Assembly: GCF_001939735.1 (NCBI RefSeq)
Contig: NZ_MJIL01000087.1
Location: forward strand, 1-64,000
Source: Photobacterium proteolyticum
Lineage (GTDB): Bacteria; Pseudomonadota; Gammaproteobacteria; Enterobacterales; Vibrionaceae
Reading direction: 5' to 3'
DNA: 64,000 nt
The translations under genes and the position numbers were made by a program. Shown here piece after piece: positions 1 through 17,334 of the stretch. The first letter of the stretch is position 1; every line of letters begins with the position of its first letter. Under the pieces are notes generated by a model. That model had not been told where the DNA came from and made no database searches. It saw only the letters and a program-made list of their open reading frames with translations.

Positions 1-345
1 AGCCAGAGCCGGATATCAATGCATTGCTCCCCTGGAACTTCTCACATTAATAACCGCCCCGTGGGTTTATGGGGCGCATACGCTTCTTTGGCTCTAGAGG
101 AAGGATCATTGGGAGGTAAAGATTGAAATTATGTCGTCGTAAACTTAAAGCGTTTTTGCATAGTTAGGCATATCTCTCTAGTTGTGAAATACAATATGAA
201 TATATGCCCATATGCTAATTAGATGCGGATAATAAGGTGGACACTTACCTAATAAGCACCTCTATTAAGGTTAGTGTCCGGTTCTAAGAGTTGGTTCGCT
301 CACAACTAGGAAACACGGGTCCCTAATTAATAGCTGCAGCTCTAA
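1..345. other. Gene-free left edge with two inverted repeats
   Basis: No convincing reading frame is seen. A GC-rich inverted repeat, CGCCCC / GGGGCG, lies at about 55-82 without a clear T-tract. A second imperfect inverted repeat spans about 239-279: GGACACTTACCT faces AAGGTTAGTGTCC, with most arm bases pairing. This could be a hairpin or an insertion-sequence end remnant, but no transposase fragment is visible beside it. Its origin is unresolved. Confidence 0.35.
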
Positions 346-1647
346 CTACCGATTGTTCCAACAACTCTTGGCTTCTTGCAGATAATTTTCATCTTGAGTT
401 AAACGACGAACTATCTCTTCGACAGCCTGTTGCGAGTATATGTGTCTGTTAGCCAGAGCTTGATGATGATGAAACTCATTGTTACTCCTTTTCCATTTCA
501 ATTTACCTACAATCGCTTGAAAACAATTGTTGTTGAAAGTTGGCTCGCCTTTTTTATCCTTAGCAACCAAGCAGCGTTTCAATTTAGTTGGTTCGAAGCG
601 TACTTTTAACTGTTCGTTAATAGCCCTAATCGCTGTTGCTTGGCTATATTTATGTGATTGTTCTGGATCAACCGTTTTTTGAACAATCAAGGCATTCTTA
701 AGCTGCTCTAGATCCTCTGCTTTCCCGTTGGCCTTAGCGATAATTATTTGGCCTTCTGCATCATCCTTCGCATACACCAGCGAGACATTGATAGGTATCG
801 CAAACTCGATATCATTTGTCCGTTCTATCTCGTCCTGAACTGTTTTAGCTAACTCCAACATTTCCTCTGCTGCTTCACCATAATAGCTTTTCAATAGTGA
901 TTTGGGTGGTAACTTGAAATCGCCCACTAAAGAGATCATTCCAGAATGCTGAGACTGTAAAAATTGAACTTCAGTGAATTCTTCAAATTTCGATGAATAG
1001 TTAAGGATTCCTGCTTGGAATACACGTGATGCCAAACCTTGAAGCTCAGGCATTAGCAGATGAACGGCATCATCTCGCCATCCAGCGATAAGCTCGATAT
1101 TCTTACGTGTTTTATCACCACTCTTAAATACTTTATCTAGACAATTCCGCAAAGAAATAGTTTGCTTAATGCCCTTTTTGGTCGGCTTACAGTAAATTGC
1201 CATTTCACCATCAGACTCGATAATCATCGACTTCAGTAACTGCTCCCAGGATGTTGAGAATAGCATCACGAACCCATCAAGTTTGTTCTCTAGTGACGGT
1301 CGGTTATACAGTTCGAGTGCCAGCATCATGTTGTCGCGGGATTTTTTGATTAGAGCCTTAGCTAGATTTGATTTACACTTGTGGCCTAATTCTTGATAAT
1401 GCTTACTTTGGGACAAGCGCTTTTTGAATTCAACGAAGCCTATATCTAAGGTGTTAACTGCTTCATACTCATCACCATCTAGAAAGGATAAGAACTGGGT
1501 AATTTGCCCTTTGCTAAAGTAAGAATTGAAAGTGTTTGGTTTCCAGCCAGTGGCACCTATGACTTCTTGCTTAGTAAATGTTTTTTGTTGGCGTTGCTTC
1601 TCCTTTAGAAACTCAAAAAACTTTTTCTGTGCACTATCTCTCGACAT
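346..1647 (-). CDS. DUF3644 domain-containing protein
   Basis: A 433-residue protein that I recognise as DUF3644-type. The N-terminal 60 residues look like a winged-helix or HTH-like segment (TKQEVIGATGWKPNTFNSY). The DUF3644 core follows at about 95-290, with an NMMLALELYNRP helix, a WEQLLK segment and a WRDDAVHLL motif that resembles the conserved R-x4-H of HEPN-like folds. The C-terminus (about 330-420) is basic with an EFHHHQAL segment. No signal peptide or membrane segment is seen. It stands alone, is more AT-rich than the chromosomal genes to its right, and sits just past the end of a tRNA array, which suits an accessory locus. DUF3644 proteins are often found in defence-gene neighbourhoods, but a defence or RNase role here is inference. 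No partner gene is seen inside the window. Confidence 0.72.
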   Translation of the reverse strand: MSRDSAQKKFFEFLKEKQRQQKTFTKQEVIGATGWKPNTFNSYFSKGQITQFLSFLDGDEYEAVNTLDIGFVEFKKRLSQSKHYQELGHKCKSNLAKALIKKSRDNMMLALELYNRPSLENKLDGFVMLFSTSWEQLLKSMIIESDGEMAIYCKPTKKGIKQTISLRNCLDKVFKSGDKTRKNIELIAGWRDDAVHLLMPELQGLASRVFQAGILNYSSKFEEFTEVQFLQSQHSGMISLVGDFKLPPKSLLKSYYGEAAEEMLELAKTVQDEIERTNDIEFAIPINVSLVYAKDDAEGQIIIAKANGKAEDLEQLKNALIVQKTVDPEQSHKYSQATAIRAINEQLKVRFEPTKLKRCLVAKDKKGEPTFNNNCFQAIVGKLKWKRSNNEFHHHQALANRHIYSQQAVEEIVRRLTQDENYLQEAKSCWNNR

Positions 1648-1935
1648 ACATACCTTCGTTACTGATTAAAGTAAAAAAACCAAACTCAAGATATCAAACT
1701 CATTTCATTTATTCTTTGATAATTACGCGTTTTTTAGAGTCGAGATACCAGGAAAAATCAGACACAAGAATACACAGAAACACTACCACCGGACTCAGAC
1801 CAGAAACATAGAAATTCAGCCTTGGGTATGGTGGCACGAAAATTACACACAGTTCATCAACACAGGAAATTTACACAGGGAACAGGAGATAGACAGGAGG
1901 GAAAATTTGGAAAGTGATAACTCCAAACTTCAGGC

Positions 1936-1962
1936 ACAAAAAAACCAGCTCGAAGCTGGTTT
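1936..1962 (-). terminator. Intrinsic terminator of the tRNA array
   Basis: Read on the minus strand, AAACCAGCT-TCG-AGCTGGTTT runs directly into a T-rich tract. It lies 55 bases beyond the last tRNA-Cys and closes the tRNA transcript. A close relative of this hairpin lies beyond the tRNA-Cys at 17261. Confidence 0.8.
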
Positions 1963-2016
1963 ATTGTTTAAGGTAATAACCTTCTAAGTTCGATATTTAA
2001 TTATCAAACTAAAATA

Positions 2017-2090
2017 TGGAGGCGCGTCCCGGAGTCGAACCGAGGTCCACGGATTTGCAATCCGCTGCATAGCCACTCTGCCAACGCGCC
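2017..2090 (-). tRNA. tRNA-Cys (GCA), copy 1
   Basis: A 74-base cloverleaf with encoded CCA. The acceptor stem GGCGCGT pairs with ACGCGCC, the anticodon loop TTGCAAA gives GCA, and the T loop is TTCGACT. It is the last gene of the array in transcription order and lies 11 bases after tRNA-Leu. Its sequence matches the copies at 2379, 2741 and 17261. Confidence 0.95.
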
Positions 2091-2101
2091 TTATATTTAG
2101 A

Positions 2102-2188
2102 TGGTGCCCCGGGCCGGACTTGAACCGGCACAACGCGAACGTCGAGGGATTTTAAATCCCTTGTGTCTACCAATTCCACCACCAGGGC
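2102..2188 (-). tRNA. tRNA-Leu (TAA), copy 1
   Basis: An 87-base class II tRNA with a long variable arm and encoded CCA. The acceptor GCCCTGG pairs with CCGGGGC with one G-U pair. The anticodon loop TTTAAAA between AGGGA and TCCCT gives anticodon TAA for the UUA codon. The variable arm CGACGTTCGCGTTG and T loop TTCAAGT are normal. Confidence 0.95.
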
Positions 2189-2284
2189 ACGCAATTCTTG
2201 ATTGCGATGCTCCTAACCAATGTGCTTTATAAAAAAGCGGTTAGACACCATCTTTGATACTGAGTACATCAATATCGCAAAATT

Positions 2285-2375
2285 TGGAGCGACACACGAG
2301 GTTCCCGATCTTCGAGGAGCTAGGCGTGACCTCAACCTTGGCAAGGTTGCGCTCTACCAGCTGAGCTAGTGTCGC
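2285..2375 (-). tRNA. tRNA-Gly (GCC), copy 1, with rearranged T arm (possible pseudo-tRNA)
   Basis: The 5' part is an ordinary tRNA-Gly: acceptor GCGACAC, D arm TAGCTCAGCTGGTAGAGC, and anticodon stem-loop CAACC-TTGCCAA-GGTTG with anticodon GCC. The 3' acceptor strand GTGTCGC and encoded CCA are also intact. Where a TTCGA T arm should lie, about 21 unrelated bases (starting CCTAGCTCC, ending ATCGGG) replace about 6. The gene is 91 bases instead of 76, and no standard T stem or T loop can be folded. Unless the extra bases are removed, this is probably a non-functional or highly unusual tRNA. The 362-bp duplication carries an identical second copy. Confidence 0.7.
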
Positions 2376-2378
2376 AAA

Positions 2379-2452
2379 TGGAGGCGCGTCCCGGAGTCGA
2401 ACCGAGGTCCACGGATTTGCAATCCGCTGCATAGCCACTCTGCCAACGCGCC
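2379..2452 (-). tRNA. tRNA-Cys (GCA), copy 2
   Basis: Same 74-base sequence as the copy at 2017, shifted by exactly 362 bases. Anticodon GCA and encoded CCA. It lies 3 bases before the tRNA-Gly copy at 2285 and 11 bases after the tRNA-Leu copy at 2464 in transcription order. Confidence 0.95.
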
Positions 2453-2463
2453 TTATATTTAGA

Positions 2464-2550
2464 TGGTGCCCCGGGCCGGACTTGAACCGGCACAACGCGA
2501 ACGTCGAGGGATTTTAAATCCCTTGTGTCTACCAATTCCACCACCAGGGC
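2464..2550 (-). tRNA. tRNA-Leu (TAA), copy 2
   Basis: Same 87-base class II tRNA as at 2102, shifted by 362 bases. Anticodon TAA, long variable arm, encoded CCA. The 96-base spacer between it and the upstream tRNA-Gly is also repeated. Confidence 0.95.
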
Positions 2551-2646
2551 ACGCAATTCTTGATTGCGATGCTCCTAACCAATGTGCTTTATAAAAAAGC
2601 GGTTAGACACCATCTTTGATACTGAGTACATCAATATCGCAAAATT

Positions 2647-2737
2647 TGGAGCGACACACGAGGTTCCCGATCTTCGAGGAGCTAGGCGTGACCTCAACCT
2701 TGGCAAGGTTGCGCTCTACCAGCTGAGCTAGTGTCGC
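2647..2737 (-). tRNA. tRNA-Gly (GCC), copy 2, with the same rearranged T arm
   Basis: By eye identical to the copy at 2285, including the roughly 21 foreign bases in the T arm. Acceptor, D and anticodon arms are normal for tRNA-Gly(GCC) and the encoded CCA is present. The shared defect shows that the T-arm change came before the tandem duplication. Confidence 0.7.
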
Positions 2738-2740
2738 AAA

Positions 2741-2814
2741 TGGAGGCGCGTCCCGGAGTCGAACCGAGGTCCACGGATTTGCAATCCGCTGCATAGCCAC
2801 TCTGCCAACGCGCC
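2741..2814 (-). tRNA. tRNA-Cys (GCA), copy 3, first gene of the array
   Basis: A 74-base tRNA-Cys with anticodon GCA and encoded CCA, identical to the other copies. It is promoter-proximal: to its right the sequence leaves the repeat and becomes unique. TTTTATATG on the minus strand about 10-20 bases upstream could be part of a promoter, but this is weak. Confidence 0.95.
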
Positions 2815-3023
2815 TTCGTGTTACATATAAAAGCAGTCTTTCGACTTACCGCTTAACGAGTCTCCCCGCTGCGGTACGAGGTGTAATTTACTGATTTTAA
2901 ATAATGAGTCAATGAAAAAATGTCGATTTTCTTTCAACTGCTCAAAAAGCAACAAAAGCAGCGATAAACCATGCAAAAACTGATCAATAACACAACACAC
3001 CCTGTTTGCACTGAAGACGCACA

Positions 3024-3057
3024 GCTTAAAACAATAAAGGCCGCAGTGCGGCCTTTA
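3024..3057 (-). terminator. Intrinsic terminator after nspC
   Basis: The minus strand reads AAAGGCCGC-ACT-GCGGCCTTT followed by a T-rich run. It lies about 22 bases past the nspC stop and ends the norspermidine operon. Confidence 0.88.
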
Positions 3058-3078
3058 TGATTCAAAAACGAAGCTGAA

Positions 3079-4212
3079 CTAGCTAACACTCCACTGTGAC
3101 AGCGAGCGCTTAAAGTCGTCGTAGCCAAACTCGTTCAGTTTTTCGATGTCCCCATTCTGACGCTGACAGTACACCGACGGCATCTTCAAACCGTTAAACC
3201 AATTGAGCTTCACCATGGTATAGCCTGCGCTGTCCATAATATGGAGGCGCTGACCAATCTCCAGCGGCTGCTCAAACTGAGTCACACAGAACTGGTCGCC
3301 CGCCAGACAAGAACAGCTACCAATCACATACTGATGATCGCCGCTGTCGCTTGCTTCTGCGATAGAGGCAGGCTCATCGTAGATTAACGTATCAAGACGG
3401 TGCGCTTCGGTCGCACTATCTACAATCGCTGTCTTGACTTCGTTTTCAACGATATCAACCACGGTAACAACCAAATCCGTCGTCTTGGTGATGATAGCCT
3501 CACCCGGCTCCAAATACAGCTGAACACCGTGCTTTTCAGAGAATGCCTTCAATGCCGCAGCCAGCTTTTCAAGCTGGTAACCCGGCCAGGTAAAGAACAC
3601 GCCACCGCCCAGACTCACCCAATCAAGCTTATTCAGATATGGACCGAACTGCTCAGAAATAGCATCGAGCAAAGCGATAAAGGCATCAACGTCTTTGTTC
3701 TCACAGTTCATGTGGAACATCACACCGTCCAGCGTTTCAAACACTGACGGGTCGATATTGTCTGCCTGAACACCCAAGCGCGAGAACTTACGCGCCGGGT
3801 TCGCCAAATCCTGACCGGCATAGCTCACGCCCGGGTTCAAACGCAGCCCTAACGACGCCTTGCCTTCAACAAGATGACGGTAAGCCGCCAGCTGGCTTTG
3901 CGAGTTGAAAATCATCTTGTCGCAGATATCAGCCACTTCTTTGACGTCATCTTCGCTGTAGCCAACGCTGTATGCGTGCGTCTCGCCACCGAAAGTTTCA
4001 TAGCCCAGCTTCACTTCATACGGACCACTGCTGGTCGTACCGTCCAAATAAGGCTTTATGATGTCGAATACGCCCCAGGTCGAGAAGCACTTCAGAGCCA
4101 ATACCAGCTTCACGCCAGACAGCTCTTTCAGCAGCTTGGCCTTCTCCAGATTGGCAATCAGCTTTTCTTCATCAATCATGAAGAAAGGGGTTTTTAGATC
4201 AGTCTTGTTCAT
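3079..4212 (-). CDS. nspC: Carboxynorspermidine decarboxylase
   Basis: A 377-residue fold-type III PLP decarboxylase, the expected length. It makes norspermidine from carboxynorspermidine in the cytoplasm, the last step of the pathway. The PLP lysine is K41 in LALKCFS. A glycine-rich phosphate-binding segment (SLGGGVF) is at about 200, and a C-terminal GSCSCLAGD motif contributes the second-subunit active-site cysteine. The ATG start has GGA about 10 bases upstream. It is the third gene of a minus-strand operon with the dehydrogenase and the fused aminotransferase-decarboxylase, an order known from Vibrio. A strong hairpin lies in the 92-base gap before it, so its expression may be attenuated relative to the upstream genes. 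Confidence 0.95.
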
Positions 4213-4237
4213 TGTTCGGTCCGTGTATTGCAGATCC

Positions 4238-4276
4238 GTAAACTAAATAAAGCTGGTATCGGAATACCAGCTTTAT
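4238..4276 (-). terminator. Hairpin in the gap before nspC (attenuator-like)
   Basis: ATAAAGCTGGTAT at 4247-4259 pairs perfectly with ATACCAGCTTTAT at 4264-4276 around a 4-base loop. On the minus strand it is followed by TTTAGTTTA, a short imperfect T-tract. It could end part of the transcription from the upstream dehydrogenase gene or stabilise its mRNA. Confidence 0.65.
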
Positions 4277-4304
4277 CAATACTATTTATTTTGGGGTTAA
4301 GTTG

Positions 4305-5549
4305 TTACTTAAGGATGTTGATCAGAGGCTGACCCACTTCCAGCTCTTGTACGTGCCAGTCCAGACCGATACCCGGCATTGTTTCCAGGAACGGATCCGG
4401 GTCTAGCTGTTCCATGTTGAACACGCCAGCTTCTGCCCAAGTACCGCGGAAGTACTGAAGCGCAGCAGAGATAGCCGGAACACCAGTGGTGTAAGAAATC
4501 GCCTGATGCTCAACATCTTCGTAAGCTACTTCGTGATCAGCATTGTTGTAGATGAACACGCTGCGCTCTTTGCCGTCTTTTTTACCCTGAACCCAAGTAC
4601 CGATACAGGTCTTACCGGTGTAGCCCGGCGCCAGAGACGTTGGATCTGGCAGGATAGCCTTCAGTACTTTCAGCGGCTCAACCACAGTACCGTCTTGTAG
4701 CGTTACAGGATCCGGGCTTAGCAGGCCGATATCGCGCATGCAGTTGAAGTAGTTCAGGTATTTGTCACCAAAGCCCATCCAGAATTCGATACGCTTGGCA
4801 GGAATGAATTCCTTCATAGAGCGAACTTCATCGTGCGCCATCGAGTAAACTTTGTGGCTGCCTACTTCCGGGAAGTCGAACTCCATCATACGGGTGTGAC
4901 ATGGTACCTGCTTCCACTCACCATCTTCCCAGTAAAAAGAATCACCCTGGATTTCCAGCATGTTTGTTTCTGGATCGAAGTTAGTTGCGAACTTCTTGCC
5001 GTGATCACCGGCGTTAACATCCATCACATCGATAGTGTCGATTTCATCAAACAGGTGCTTAACCGCATAAGCGGCAAATACGCTTACTACGCCCGGATCG
5101 AAACCGGCACCAAGAATGCCTGTGATACCCGCTTCTTTGAATTTCTCGCGGTAGCCCCACTGCCAATCGTAGGCCTGTGGAACCTGCTGGCCTTCAGAGC
5201 ACAGGTCAACCGCTACAGATGTATCCAGGTAAGATACCTTGGCCTGGTAACACGCTTCCATGATTGCCATGTTCACCCATGGAGGACCAGCGTTGATAAC
5301 CAGATCAGGCTGTACTTCCTTGATCAGGGCAACCAATGCTTCAACGTCGTCAGCATTTACAGCGCGTGCTTCCAGCTTCTTTGATGGATCTTTCAGGTTG
5401 TTCTTCTTCTGGATCGACGCAATGATTTTTTCGCACTTAGAAACAGTACGGGATGCAATCGTAATATCACCAAGAACGTCGTTGTTTTGAGCTGCTTTAT
5501 GCGCAATTACCCAGCCAACACCACCAGCACCAATTTGTAGAATAGCCAT
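4305..5549 (-). CDS. Carboxynorspermidine dehydrogenase (saccharopine dehydrogenase family)
   Basis: A 414-residue protein of the saccharopine dehydrogenase-like family. It begins with a Rossmann nucleotide-binding segment, ILQIGAGGVGWVIAHKAA, at residues 3-20. The C-terminal domain has the DPETNMLEIQGDSFYW and GFGDKYLNYFNC segments typical of carboxynorspermidine synthases. It condenses diaminopropane with aspartate semialdehyde and reduces the Schiff base with NADPH to carboxynorspermidine. GGAAG precedes the ATG. It sits between the diaminobutyrate enzyme and nspC, which settles the substrate choice over lysine-pathway saccharopine dehydrogenase. It is often labelled Lys1-like in annotations. 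Confidence 0.92.
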   Translation of the reverse strand: MAILQIGAGGVGWVIAHKAAQNNDVLGDITIASRTVSKCEKIIASIQKKNNLKDPSKKLEARAVNADDVEALVALIKEVQPDLVINAGPPWVNMAIMEACYQAKVSYLDTSVAVDLCSEGQQVPQAYDWQWGYREKFKEAGITGILGAGFDPGVVSVFAAYAVKHLFDEIDTIDVMDVNAGDHGKKFATNFDPETNMLEIQGDSFYWEDGEWKQVPCHTRMMEFDFPEVGSHKVYSMAHDEVRSMKEFIPAKRIEFWMGFGDKYLNYFNCMRDIGLLSPDPVTLQDGTVVEPLKVLKAILPDPTSLAPGYTGKTCIGTWVQGKKDGKERSVFIYNNADHEVAYEDVEHQAISYTTGVPAISAALQYFRGTWAEAGVFNMEQLDPDPFLETMPGIGLDWHVQELEVGQPLINILK

Positions 5550-5649
5550 CGTTATTTTCTTCCGTTAATAATCAATACGTTTTAGAACGCTGGTGCTGCC
5601 ACAACTGTTTCCAGCCAGTGCGCAGCAGCACCTATTGTTAGTAAATCAA

Positions 5650-8538
5650 TTAATCAACCAGCGTACGGGCCAGATCATTAATATCGTTAAGTAAGGTTTC
5701 GAAATCAGCCATCGTCAGACACGGGTTCAGAATAGTGAACTTAAGTGCCACTTTTCCGTCGACCACGGTTTCACCCAATACAGCAACACCTTTCACCAGA
5801 GCTTCAATACGCAGCTGCTTGTTGAACTGATCGATATCGACTGTTTGATCGCCAAGGGAGCGGAACAATACCGTCGACAAAGCGGGATCGGCCAGCAATT
5901 CAAAGTCAGCAGACTGATTGATCAAATCGGCAACCTGCTGCGCCTGTCCCAGCAAATGATCATACATCGCGCCAAGCGCCTGGGTGCCCACACACTGCAT
6001 CGTCATCAGCACTTTCAGTGCATCAAAGCGCTTAGTAGTAGCAATCGACTTGTCGACCAGGTTTGGCAGCAGATCATCTTCACGATTCAGGTAATCAGCA
6101 TGGTGCAGCAGGTATTTAAAGTGCTCTTTGTCTTTCAGCAATACCGCACCGCAGCTGATTGGCTGATAGAACAACTTATGGAAGTCCACGCTGAGCGAGT
6201 CTGCTCGCTCAATACCGTGCAAGCGCGTCTTATGGCGGCTCAAGATCAACGCGCCACCGTAGGCGCCATCAACATGCAGCCACAGGTTGTGCTGCTGGGC
6301 AACATCTGCCAGACCAGCCAGGTCATCAATCGCACCGTGATCGGTCGTCCCTGCTGTACCCACAAGGGCAAACGGCATCAAGCCTTCGCTTTTCATCGAC
6401 TCTATGGTCGTCACCAGCGAGGCCAGCTTGATTGTGCCATCTGGGTTGGTATCGACACACTCCACGGCATGTTCACCCAGTCCAAGCAGCGATGCAGATT
6501 TCTGTACCGTGAAGTGAGACTTCTTAGAACATAGGATACGCAGTTTGCCCGCATAATCCGGCAAACCTTCTTTTTGGATGTTATGGCCGGAAATCGTATC
6601 TGCCGCCCAGTCACGTGCCAGCAACAAGCCCATCAGGTTGCTCTGGGTACCACCACTGGTAAACACGCCATCAGCCTGCTCGCCAAGCTCATAAACACCG
6701 CACAACCAATCGACAACCTTCTGTTCCACATAAGTTGCAGAACTTGCCTGATCCCATGAGTCCATTGACTGGTTCAATGAGCTGATAAATGCCTCGGCGG
6801 CAACCGCTGGCAATAAAGGCGGTGTATGCAGATGCGCAATGCAGCTTGGATGCTGAACCATGATCGAGTTCTTGGCGATCAGTTCTCCAGTCTGCTCAAT
6901 GACTGTCTCCAGCGGCAGCTGCTGATCGTCCAGCTCGATGTTGTTGATCAAGTTTTTCAGTACCAGCGGCTCGAGCCCTGAGTACGGCGCATCAGCCGCT
7001 TCGAAAACTTGTTTCAGAACTTGTGTGGTCTGGTTTAGCGCAACCTCAAGCTCGTCTGCACCGCCTTCACCGGTGTGGATGAAGTACGAACGCCACTGCT
7101 CCTGATCCGATTCCGCATTGGCTTCTGAAATTGTTGCCGGGCCAGCTGTAGCAAGAATGGCCTTGCTCAACGCTTCGAGGGCAAAATCAATTTGCTCGTA
7201 GCTAATAATCAACGGTGGCAGAAAACGCAGAACAGAACCCTGACGTCCGCCTTTTTCGATGATCAGACCACGCTCCAACGCAGCGCGCTGGATATTCGCC
7301 GTCATTTCAGGATCGGCTTCAGGCTCACCGAACTTGTTCTTCTGATTGTTTGGCTTAACAATCTCAACACCCAGCATCAAACCTTTGCCGCGTACTTCAG
7401 CGATACAATCGGTATATCCGGCAATGCGCTCCAGGCCCTCACGCAGGTACTGGCCAGCTTTTTCGGCATGCTCTACCAGGTGATCACGACGAATAATTTC
7501 CAACGCTTTTGCACCGGTCGCCATTGCCAGCTGGTTACCACGGAATGTGCCGGTATGCTCACCCGGACGCCAGGTATCAATCGACTTGTCAAAGAGCAAT
7601 ACAGACATCGGCAGACCGCCACCGACAGCTTTCGACAAACAAAGAATGTCTGGGGTAATGCCTGATTCTTCAAACGCAAAACGGTGACCGGTTTTACCGA
7701 TACCACACTGGATTTCATCAAGGATCAGCAGAATGCCATGTTCTTTGGTGATACGACGCAGCTCTTGTAGCCAGAAAGCCGGAGCCGGGATCACCCCACC
7801 CTCGCCTTGCACAGGCTCAACAATGATCGCCGCGGGTTTCTGTACGCCGCTTTCATCGTCGCTCAGCATACGTTCGATATAACGAATGCTTTGTTTGGCT
7901 CCTTCATTGCCTTTCAGGCCGAACGGGCAGCGCAGGCTATATGGGAACGGCAGGAAGTGGACATCTGCCATCAGCCCCTGACGACGCTCTTTCGTCCCCA
8001 GGTTACCCATCAACGCCATGGTTCCGTTAGTCATACCATGGTAGGCACCATGGAAAGCCGCCATCGTGTTTCGGCCAGTGGTTTGCTTGGCCAGTTTAAT
8101 CGCCGCTTCTACAGCGTCGGCACCGGAAGGGCCACAGAACTGAATACGGGCGTTGGCTGCAAAATCATCCGGTAGGAAGTTCATCACTTCTTTGATGAAT
8201 TTATCTTTGGCCGGGGTTGTCATATCCAGAGTCTGGTACGGCAGCCCCTGGTTTAGCTGTTCGATAATTGCCTGGTTGATTTCTGGGTGGTTATAACCCA
8301 GAGCCAGTGTTCCGGCACCAGCCAGACAGTCTAGAAATAGTTGGCCTCGGCTATCTTCCACCAGCGCGCCTGATGCTTTCTTGATAGCAAGAGGCAGCCT
8401 TCTCGGATAGGAGCGCACTTCCGACTCATAATGCTCCTGACTCAGCAGCAGTTCATCGGGTGTCAAATCGTACAATTCATGTACAACCGGTACGTTTGAG
8501 GCTAGCTTGATATCGTCTAAATCAAACACATTACTCAT
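5650..8538 (-). CDS. Fused L-2,4-diaminobutyrate aminotransferase / decarboxylase
   Basis: About 962 residues with two PLP enzymes in one chain. Residues 1 to about 460 are a class III aminotransferase (EPVQGEGGV, DEIQCGIGKTG, LSKAVGGG with the PLP lysine) that makes diaminobutyrate from aspartate semialdehyde and glutamate. Residues about 490-962 are a group II decarboxylase (TSGGTQSN, HVDGAYGG, VDFHKLFY with the PLP lysine) that gives 1,3-diaminopropane. The fusion feeds the two downstream norspermidine enzymes and is known in Vibrio. An ATG three codons earlier (8547) is possible, but the ATG at 8538 has GGA at a better distance. It is the first gene of the operon; 100 bases separate it from the dehydrogenase. 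Confidence 0.94.
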   Translation of the reverse strand: MSNVFDLDDIKLASNVPVVHELYDLTPDELLLSQEHYESEVRSYPRRLPLAIKKASGALVEDSRGQLFLDCLAGAGTLALGYNHPEINQAIIEQLNQGLPYQTLDMTTPAKDKFIKEVMNFLPDDFAANARIQFCGPSGADAVEAAIKLAKQTTGRNTMAAFHGAYHGMTNGTMALMGNLGTKERRQGLMADVHFLPFPYSLRCPFGLKGNEGAKQSIRYIERMLSDDESGVQKPAAIIVEPVQGEGGVIPAPAFWLQELRRITKEHGILLILDEIQCGIGKTGHRFAFEESGITPDILCLSKAVGGGLPMSVLLFDKSIDTWRPGEHTGTFRGNQLAMATGAKALEIIRRDHLVEHAEKAGQYLREGLERIAGYTDCIAEVRGKGLMLGVEIVKPNNQKNKFGEPEADPEMTANIQRAALERGLIIEKGGRQGSVLRFLPPLIISYEQIDFALEALSKAILATAGPATISEANAESDQEQWRSYFIHTGEGGADELEVALNQTTQVLKQVFEAADAPYSGLEPLVLKNLINNIELDDQQLPLETVIEQTGELIAKNSIMVQHPSCIAHLHTPPLLPAVAAEAFISSLNQSMDSWDQASSATYVEQKVVDWLCGVYELGEQADGVFTSGGTQSNLMGLLLARDWAADTISGHNIQKEGLPDYAGKLRILCSKKSHFTVQKSASLLGLGEHAVECVDTNPDGTIKLASLVTTIESMKSEGLMPFALVGTAGTTDHGAIDDLAGLADVAQQHNLWLHVDGAYGGALILSRHKTRLHGIERADSLSVDFHKLFYQPISCGAVLLKDKEHFKYLLHHADYLNREDDLLPNLVDKSIATTKRFDALKVLMTMQCVGTQALGAMYDHLLGQAQQVADLINQSADFELLADPALSTVLFRSLGDQTVDIDQFNKQLRIEALVKGVAVLGETVVDGKVALKFTILNPCLTMADFETLLNDINDLARTLVD

Positions 8539-9552
8539 GGGTGTCATCCAATAATTAACACGTCATATGAAACATGACGCTCGGCAGAACATACCTGAGG
8601 TAATATCCGACTCAACTTATATAGCATGCAATCTGATTAATACATTACATAGCCACATAGAGGGTCATTAGGATTGTCAGGTATTCTTTTCCTGCCGGTA
8701 AACACAAAGATACCATCAGCCAAAAGCTAATGAGGTAACAGGTTTACAGCAAAAAGCTGAAATGATTTAGATAGGAAATATCAAGGTTCAGTAATAATAC
8801 TGCAGTTAGGTAAGACTAAGCTGATTTGGGTTTTCAATGTTAGTGTTTTCAATGTTGGGTTCCTTCAATATGCTCCTGCTCTATTTGGTGGCAGGTCCGC
8901 GCTATTAATGCCCTTCTACTGACGAAAGGTTCGCCAGTACCTACGGCACGTTGTGACACAATCAGCCTGAATTCATCACAACGCATATGTCTCAGTAATA
9001 CTGCCCCCTGAGATTGCGCAGAAAAGTAACATATTGTGTGTCTGGATGCCAAGTGTTATTTCACAAGCTGCCCGCCCCTATCAAAACTGAGATTATCCTC
9101 TCTTATATATAGCGATAACGACACTTTGCCTAACCGCATCCGTTGACACTTTTTTAATACAATGTGACTCGCCTTAAGGATATAAACCTGATTTCACAAC
9201 AGAACATGAAGCAGTTCAAAAATCATACAACAGAGTTATGTTAGGTTAATCAACAGGAATCAAAGTTAATTTAAACTACGTCTCGGCATGGTGATCGTTA
9301 TGAACAGTCATTTTCTGTCAAAGAAGAAACTATCGGCTTGTATAGGCCAGCTCCTCCCCTGAGGTAAAACATACGCTGACAGTCTGTCAAGCATGGCTTA
9401 CTTCATCTCTCTGGCAAAACTCAACTTCCACCTCAAAATCACGATACCCGATCCCGGTTAATTTCAGCTTCTCTCTTCATTCATCAATTAATTTAATACT
9501 TTGGGCGTAGCTCTGCTTTCATTCGCCCTAAAAACAATGATAAGGAAATAAT
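8539..9552. other. 1-kb intergenic region between divergent genes
   Basis: It must hold the promoters of the norspermidine operon (leftward) and of the EIIC-like gene (rightward). No RNA gene or repeat is recognised. A 67-codon open frame on the minus strand at 8849-9052 has no recognisable motif and is not called. I could not assign promoter elements with confidence. Confidence 0.5.
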
Positions 9553-17242: not shown

Positions 17243-17262
17243 CATCCCATCAAGATGGGATG
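17243..17262. repeat. Short perfect hairpin beside tRNA-Cys
   Basis: CATCCCAT-CAAG-ATGGGATG touches the 3' end of the tRNA-Cys at 17261. It may act in 3'-end processing. It is absent from the tRNA-Cys copies at 2.0-2.8 kb. Confidence 0.6.
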
Positions 17263-17334
17263 GAGGCGCGTCCCGGAGTCGAACCGAGGTCCACGGATTT
17301 GCAATCCGCTGCATAGCCACTCTGCCAACGCGCC
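17261..17334 (-). tRNA. tRNA-Cys (GCA), isolated copy next to pgsA
   Basis: The same 74-base tRNA-Cys as in the array 14.4 kb to the left, with anticodon GCA and encoded CCA. It lies downstream of pgsA, the place where E. coli has glyW-cysT-leuZ. Here only the Cys gene remains next to pgsA and the Gly and Leu partners are in the distant array. Confidence 0.95.

Follow-up and report, generated by a model that had tools for sequence, protein, structure and literature searches.

What are the two 91-nt tRNA-Gly(GCC) genes that lie within a Cys-Gly-Leu tRNA array of the window, the 64,000-nucleotide stretch of Photobacterium proteolyticum DNA analysed here, and how did they come by so unusual a T arm? 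The original prediction, made from the letters of the sequence, regarded them as tRNA genes in which the T arm had been rearranged in the course of decay. The defect itself is real in both copies, which are identical to each other and sit inside a 362-bp Cys-Gly-Leu repeat. Although ARAGORN reports each as a tRNA-Gly(gcc), each scores 42.4 bits against the Rfam tRNA model RF00005, relative to 56.6-58.3 bits for the neighboring Cys and Leu genes of the window and 65.7-68.6 bits for the canonical tRNA-Gly of related genomes. At that score we obtained no cloverleaf that fits the extra bases well: the RF00005 alignment pairs only 3 bp of the T stem, skips a stretch of 26 nt and leaves the genes without the standard T stem-loop expected of a functional tRNA-Gly(GCC). 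As had been claimed, the rest of the gene is intact, including the acceptor stem (7 of 7 pairs), the D and anticodon stems, the GCC anticodon and the encoded CCA. The T-arm replacement had also been recognized correctly, but not its size. Relative to the canonical T arm of the same genome, ACGAGTTCGAACCTCGT, it is AGTTC that is swapped for 20 other bases (canonical ACG, AGTTC, GAACCTCGT; window ACG, CCTAGCTCCTCGAAGATCGG, GAACCTCGT), a net gain of 15, and not TTCGA that is exchanged for about 21. The array and the parts of the two genes, including assignments argued for below, are as follows, all on the minus strand:

2741..2814 (-), tRNA-Cys(GCA), array gene 1 (ARAGORN)
2647..2737 (-), 91-nt tRNA-Gly(GCC), upstream copy, read as a chimera and identical to the downstream one (ARAGORN, RF00005, alignment with L093)
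2647..2706 (-), its 60-nt 3′ part (model R1, 75.3 bits)
2667..2686 (-), its 20-base insert, identical to that of the downstream copy (sequence)
2464..2550 (-), tRNA-Leu(TAA) (ARAGORN)
2379..2452 (-), tRNA-Cys(GCA) (ARAGORN)
2285..2375 (-), 91-nt tRNA-Gly(GCC), downstream copy, read as a chimera (ARAGORN, RF00005, alignment with L093)
2345..2375 (-), its 5′ half, comprising the acceptor, the D arm and the 5′ side of the anticodon stem, of apparent canonical tRNA-Gly origin (L093 alignment); the crossover falls within the shared repeat
2285..2344 (-), its 60-nt 3′ part, matching the tail-copy element (model R1, 75.3 bits)
2305..2324 (-), its 20-base T-arm insert replacing AGTTC (sequence compared with the canonical gene)
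2102..2188 (-), tRNA-Leu(TAA) (ARAGORN)
2017..2090 (-), tRNA-Cys(GCA), final array gene (ARAGORN)
1942..1962 (-), terminator-like hairpin and T run 3′ of the array (consensus match only)

Directly behind the array, a gene at 346-1647 (-) encodes a 433-aa protein with DUF3644 and EC042_2821-like restriction-endonuclease-like domains that matches the PADLOC candidate defence family PDC-S19. Upstream of the array, 3079-8547 (-) holds genes for decarboxylase-like, saccharopine-dehydrogenase-like and long fused proteins, which we take to resemble a polyamine (norspermidine) pathway. A lone tRNA-Cys lies off the array at 17261-17334 (-), its mature part identical to the array copies and with a terminator-like stretch behind it.

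The most direct evidence on the origin of the two genes comes from a second Cys-Gly-Leu array in the same genome (locus L093, contig G000:C60), in which Cys is followed by a canonical 76-nt Gly, a separate element and then Leu, and in which that element ends in a tRNA-Gly 3′ half with exactly the window insert. Aligned with this array, the window unit has zero differences across Cys and the Gly 5′ half, then a single 115-nt gap flanked by two copies of GGTAGAGCRCAACCTTGCCAAGGTTGAGGTCACG, and after it near-identity over insert, spacer and Leu. Because one gap between shared repeats separates the two arrangements, sequence comparison gives good support to the conclusion that the window genes are deletion chimeras of a canonical tRNA-Gly 5′ half and the 3′ half of an element. 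The deletion would have occurred between nearby direct repeats, one in the canonical tRNA-Gly(GCC) and one in the tail-copy element downstream of it, and the chimera would afterwards have been duplicated along with the neighboring genes. That the defect predates the tandem duplication, as had been proposed, is the best explanation of its presence in both copies. The suggestion of recent decay held in part: the event appears to be recent, because the acceptor, D and anticodon arms are intact, but it was evidently a fusion by deletion and not the decay of a tRNA gene. The source of the altered T arm is a separate element that is conserved in the family together with much of its insert, and the L093 alignment rules out decay by point mutation. 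The original prediction had also called for comparison with the same locus in related genomes, and Photobacterium alginatilyticum (NZ_RSEJ01000001.1) has a 91-nt gene of like kind, 98% identical, in the same slot; an error in a single assembly is unlikely because this second genome shows the same gene form.

How widespread is the element from which the 3′ half was drawn? A 60-nt sequence model (R1) gives most elements scores of about 39-77 bits and canonical tRNA-Gly never more than 35.2 bits. Matches to it better than E = 5e-9, a limit of our own choosing below the canonical score of about 5e-8, were found in 130 of 296 Vibrionaceae genomes; the 130 is a count of model matches, with sequences collected from 94 genomes. 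Many Vibrionaceae genomes are thus without an element detectable by R1, and the positives fall in 8 of 13 genera, which may be an undercount given strict filters and few candidates. In an order-wide sample, 13 of 394 genomes matched at E 1e-8 or better, and all 13 are Vibrionaceae. Named carriers, from 32 stretches found with one strict pattern, are Photobacterium, Vibrio, Enterovibrio, Grimontia and Aliivibrio. Across positions 1-5000 of the window and four other loci (L060, L064, L066 and L067), only RF00005 reached its gathering score in Rfam 15; in the window, RNAI, isrK and STnc gave weak sub-gathering matches, which lie away from the tRNA genes on hairpins of terminator-like or other kinds and were discarded. 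In literature searches we did not find the element among the titles and openings of abstracts listed, most subscription papers being beyond reach.

Six of 227 copies were dropped (scores below 30, or canonical genes cut at contig edges), leaving 221 from 94 genomes, of which 203 could be read in their 5′ half and had a tRNA upstream of them within the locus. By limits that are our own, we classed copies by ungapped identity to the canonical 5′ half as full (at least 25 of 31), partial (18-24) or non-tRNA-like (below 18). The 5′ half was tRNA-like in 26 of the 28 copies that occupy a tRNA slot (with another gene, usually Cys, Met or Leu, no more than 70 nt away) and in 19 of 47 far from any upstream tRNA, and the 128 with a canonical Gly no more than 140 nt upstream comprised 31 that were tRNA-like, 31 partial and 66 that were not. 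Within this last group, the conserved part begins 28 to 132 nt behind the canonical Gly. Ten genomes have both slot copies and non-full elements: in three, the window genome included, some insert is identical between the two forms, and in seven none is. Because their slot and element inserts differ, the fusions in those seven genomes are older or of other origin. Elements occur in Gly-Met as well as Cys-Gly-Leu arrays, and in some arrays lie just before or after the terminator and are repeated there; several of the repeats past a terminator may hardly be transcribed.

A question arising from these observations is whether the copies are anything more than debris. Amplified tRNA arrays could shed partial copies that do nothing, with gene conversion by canonical tRNA-Gly tidying their 3′ parts; we regard this as the main rival to an RNA reading, although an unlikely one. 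Pseudogenes of tandem tRNA arrays are indeed partial copies with drifting anticodons, as is the Gly element, and the patchy presence of the element (130 of 296 genomes), its frequently drifted 5′ half and its occurrence in tandem repeats, some past terminators, fit such an origin. So does position 59, at which non-full elements follow the canonical allele of the same genome in 65 entries, with 2 against and 4 ambiguous (genome entries, uncorrected for kinship), a pattern of concerted evolution with the canonical genes. Gene conversion alone could therefore maintain the tRNA-like parts without function, but it could not maintain the insert, because canonical tRNAs have none. It is in the insert that the element departs from array pseudogenes: across 174 distinct sequences its ends, CCT and RGG, are conserved, and the best conserved columns of the element read AAGGTTGAGGTCACGCCT, about 16 variable bases and RGGARCCTCGTGTGTCGCTCCA. 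When a single copy was drawn at random from each of 87 genomes, leaving out rows with unusual first letters, the insert is alike at 0.85 within the window's genus vs. 0.58-0.67 for nearby spacers and at 70% between genera vs. 58-63% for spacers; within genus g12 it reaches only 0.72 vs. 0.59-0.66, and shuffled inserts are alike at 53%. A neutral pseudo-tRNA should show nothing above spacer conservation, an expectation that fails here, albeit more weakly in g12.

Could the thing conserved be a glycine tRNA of a special kind, altered in its T arm, which is charged and serves in translation or elsewhere? The window genes on their own, with acceptor, D and anticodon arms and GCC anticodon intact, would agree with this. 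Their relatives would not: 24 of 81 full copies have an anticodon other than GCC, the figures being 8 of 41 for the partial copies and 21 of 77 for the others, and many relatives have no tRNA-like 5′ half at all. In one species the Gly body carries Asn anticodons, as at locus L085, where 91-nt Gly forms at 1249-1339 and 2866-2956 (-) have the anticodon ATT or GTT and ARAGORN names them tRNA-Asn. In addition, the cloverleaf drawn for the window gene lies 8.5 kcal/mol above the predicted minimum, although plain folding misses the cloverleaf of the canonical tRNA-Gly gene too. We therefore consider a special tRNA very improbable and, because the anticodon drifts, the sequences indicate that decoding is not what the element is kept for.

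Folding provides a second line of evidence that bears on debris. The 73 copies without a tRNA-like 5′ half have a mean folding z of -2.1 vs. dinucleotide shuffles, with 9 of the 73 above zero. In a best-window test, a 12-nt helix with the tail (P up to 0.05) was found in 24 of 80 non-tRNA-like copies; the partial class gave 5 of 43 and the full class 5 of 71. In predicted folds, a closing helix of at least 7 pairs is present in 44 of 63 non-tRNA-like copies vs. 42% with shuffled upstream sequence, and in 43 of 56 full copies vs. 40%; the partial class has no such excess (9 of 31 vs. 34%). When the upstream sequences were clustered at 75% identity, 21 of 26 clusters beat their own shuffles and 5 did not (Wilcoxon P 5e-4), and at 68% identity 17 of 19 did so. 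Part of this closing helix is inherited acceptor stem, because copies shifted by indels land in the non-tRNA-like class. Even so, that divergent 5′ strands pair with the tail above the level of shuffles, and that a closing helix is commoner than in shuffles, is not what array pseudogenes would lead one to expect. Other aspects of the fold are less clear-cut. No single consensus fold was found for the 60-nt element (-0.49 kcal/mol over 174 distinct sequences), and two models of its T arm, CACG/CGTG and TGAGGT/ACCTCG, are indistinguishable because the tRNA-derived columns barely vary. Hairpins in the insert average a z of -0.82 vs. mononucleotide shuffles (n = 111, 36% below -1); stable ones are exceptional, the strongest being found in a set of U-rich inserts.

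What else is built in this way? RtT is an old E. coli RNA of unclear role, and the E. coli tyrT-tyrV operon has four RtT units whose ends are the tail of tRNA-Tyr through CCA. At E up to 0.001 the RtT model (RF00391) finds matches in 18 of 61 Vibrionaceae genomes, and in 12 of the 18 they lie above the curated cut-off. Among 20 RtT loci fetched, which include two pairs from the same arrays, an upstream tRNA was present in 17 and was Ser in all 17, and in 16 of these 17 the last 20 bases match the tail of that tRNA-Ser with 0-3 mismatches. The remaining locus is close to the end of a contig, where fixed coordinates misfit, and an exact 20-nt tail copy is present there. The genome of the window has an RtT-like RNA of its own (L204 1501-1629 (+), equivalent to G000:C51:22643-22771), which scores 43.3 bits against a cut-off of 45, lies 47 nt behind a tRNA-Ser(TGA) and has the Ser tail, copied exactly over 20 nt, as its end. 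RtT has been described as an RNA that is set free from the transcripts of tRNA operons and has a link to the stringent response (PMC4986893).

The Gly element resembles RtT (RF00391; rttR) in layout. Each lies about 45 nt behind a tRNA, may be repeated in tandem, has a high degree of structure and copies the preceding tRNA's 3′ end as its own end, up to CCA; this position, shortly behind a tRNA whose 3′ copy and CCA it shares, is that of the parent Gly elements, the window chimeras being fused into the tRNA itself. Their bodies differ, however, and neither model matches the other's tested loci: RF00391 had zero matches up to E 1 in positions 1-5000 of the window and zero up to E 0.01 in L060, L064, L066 and L067, with four matches in the positive control L170, and R1 matched none of seven RtT loci. 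Judged by the RtT model, the Gly element is not an RtT homolog. The copied part differs as well, running from the anticodon loop onward in the Gly element but only from about the T loop in RtT. Tail copies of fMet whose body reads GACGGAT..CCGCYCGG are present in 12 of 296 genomes, from 4 genera, whereas a reversed control pattern had zero matches in the 296. At locus L064, 1309-2296 (+) contains four initiator tRNA-Met genes, each 91 nt long and bearing an insert in the T loop, which sit after the operon terminator in a 299-bp repeat with Gly elements and terminators; other fMet fragments retain a normal T arm. A single copy of a tRNA-Leu tail, whose T loop holds a hairpin-like insert, lies at L129 1998-1977 (-). 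That the same layout recurs with unrelated bodies (fMet, RtT) is difficult to reconcile with debris.

Recurrence of this kind raises the possibility of small elements that inserted at tRNA 3′ ends and duplicated the tail, the RNA body being cargo or scar. Site-specific integrases duplicate tRNA tails on insertion, the order of tRNA, short body and copy of the tRNA's own 3′ end would fit attL and attR, and the tails on RtT bodies are those of Ser(GGA), Ser(TGA) or Tyr, depending on the host tRNA. Against such remnants, the Gly tail copy itself bears the insert, the bodies are short (about 45 to 150 nt), and among the matches listed from phage records none covers 80% of the 91-nt query, while the lone listed record of the plasmid collection to cover at least 80%, a 2.06-Mb Vibrio campbellii replicon, is a 76-base match to a canonical tRNA. 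A phage or plasmid origin is thus unsupported among the matches listed, and we consider integration remnants improbable, though an integration origin of the tail copies would be compatible with a present RNA role.

We favor, by a modest margin over even chances, a joint explanation in which the window genes are deletion chimeras and their parent is an RtT-like structured RNA made with the tRNA, the latter inferred from conservation, folding and shared layout. The element would share a transcript with the tRNAs and be set free as they are processed. Because its 3′ strand (T stem, acceptor strand and CCA) copies the tail of the preceding tRNA, ordinary tRNA-trimming enzymes would finish its 3′ end; its 5′ strand, which is often un-tRNA-like yet tends to pair with the tRNA-derived 3′ strand, would fold back onto the tail around stem-loops of its own. 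Among the roles offered in the original prediction, that of supplying RNA fragments would come closest to this view. The RNA made from the 91-nt chimera is probably tRNA-shaped and possibly chargeable with glycine, but would serve elongation poorly because it lacks the T loop, the partner of the D loop in a tRNA. A partial parallel is 3′ETS-leuZ, a spacer RNA of the E. coli glyW-cysT-leuZ operon, which like the window array is of the Gly-Cys-Leu type. It is reportedly a sponge RNA, differing from the Gly element in that it acts by pairing with small RNAs and, to our knowledge, has not been described as a copy of a tRNA tail.

The Gly element, RtT and the fMet elements may belong to a general class of tail-copy RNAs in gamma-proteobacterial tRNA operons, a proposal that we make tentatively and with more doubt than conviction. 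In such a class, structured RNAs that are unrelated to one another would all copy, as their own ends, the 3′ strand and CCA of whichever tRNA lies immediately upstream; tRNA maturation enzymes would therefore finish them and their amounts would follow tRNA synthesis, and deletion between tail and tRNA would yield chimeric tRNAs like the window pair.

What looked like an odd pseudo-tRNA thus becomes the sign of an element conserved in Vibrionaceae tRNA arrays that Rfam 15 leaves unlabelled in the scanned loci and that is tied to RtT through its layout. There is a practical consequence, in that chimeras of this kind appear in the output of tRNA finders under the name of glycine or even asparagine tRNAs. 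The rule that the tail copies the host tRNA is a simple and testable one and, if true, it would show a route by which small RNAs could be made in step with tRNA.
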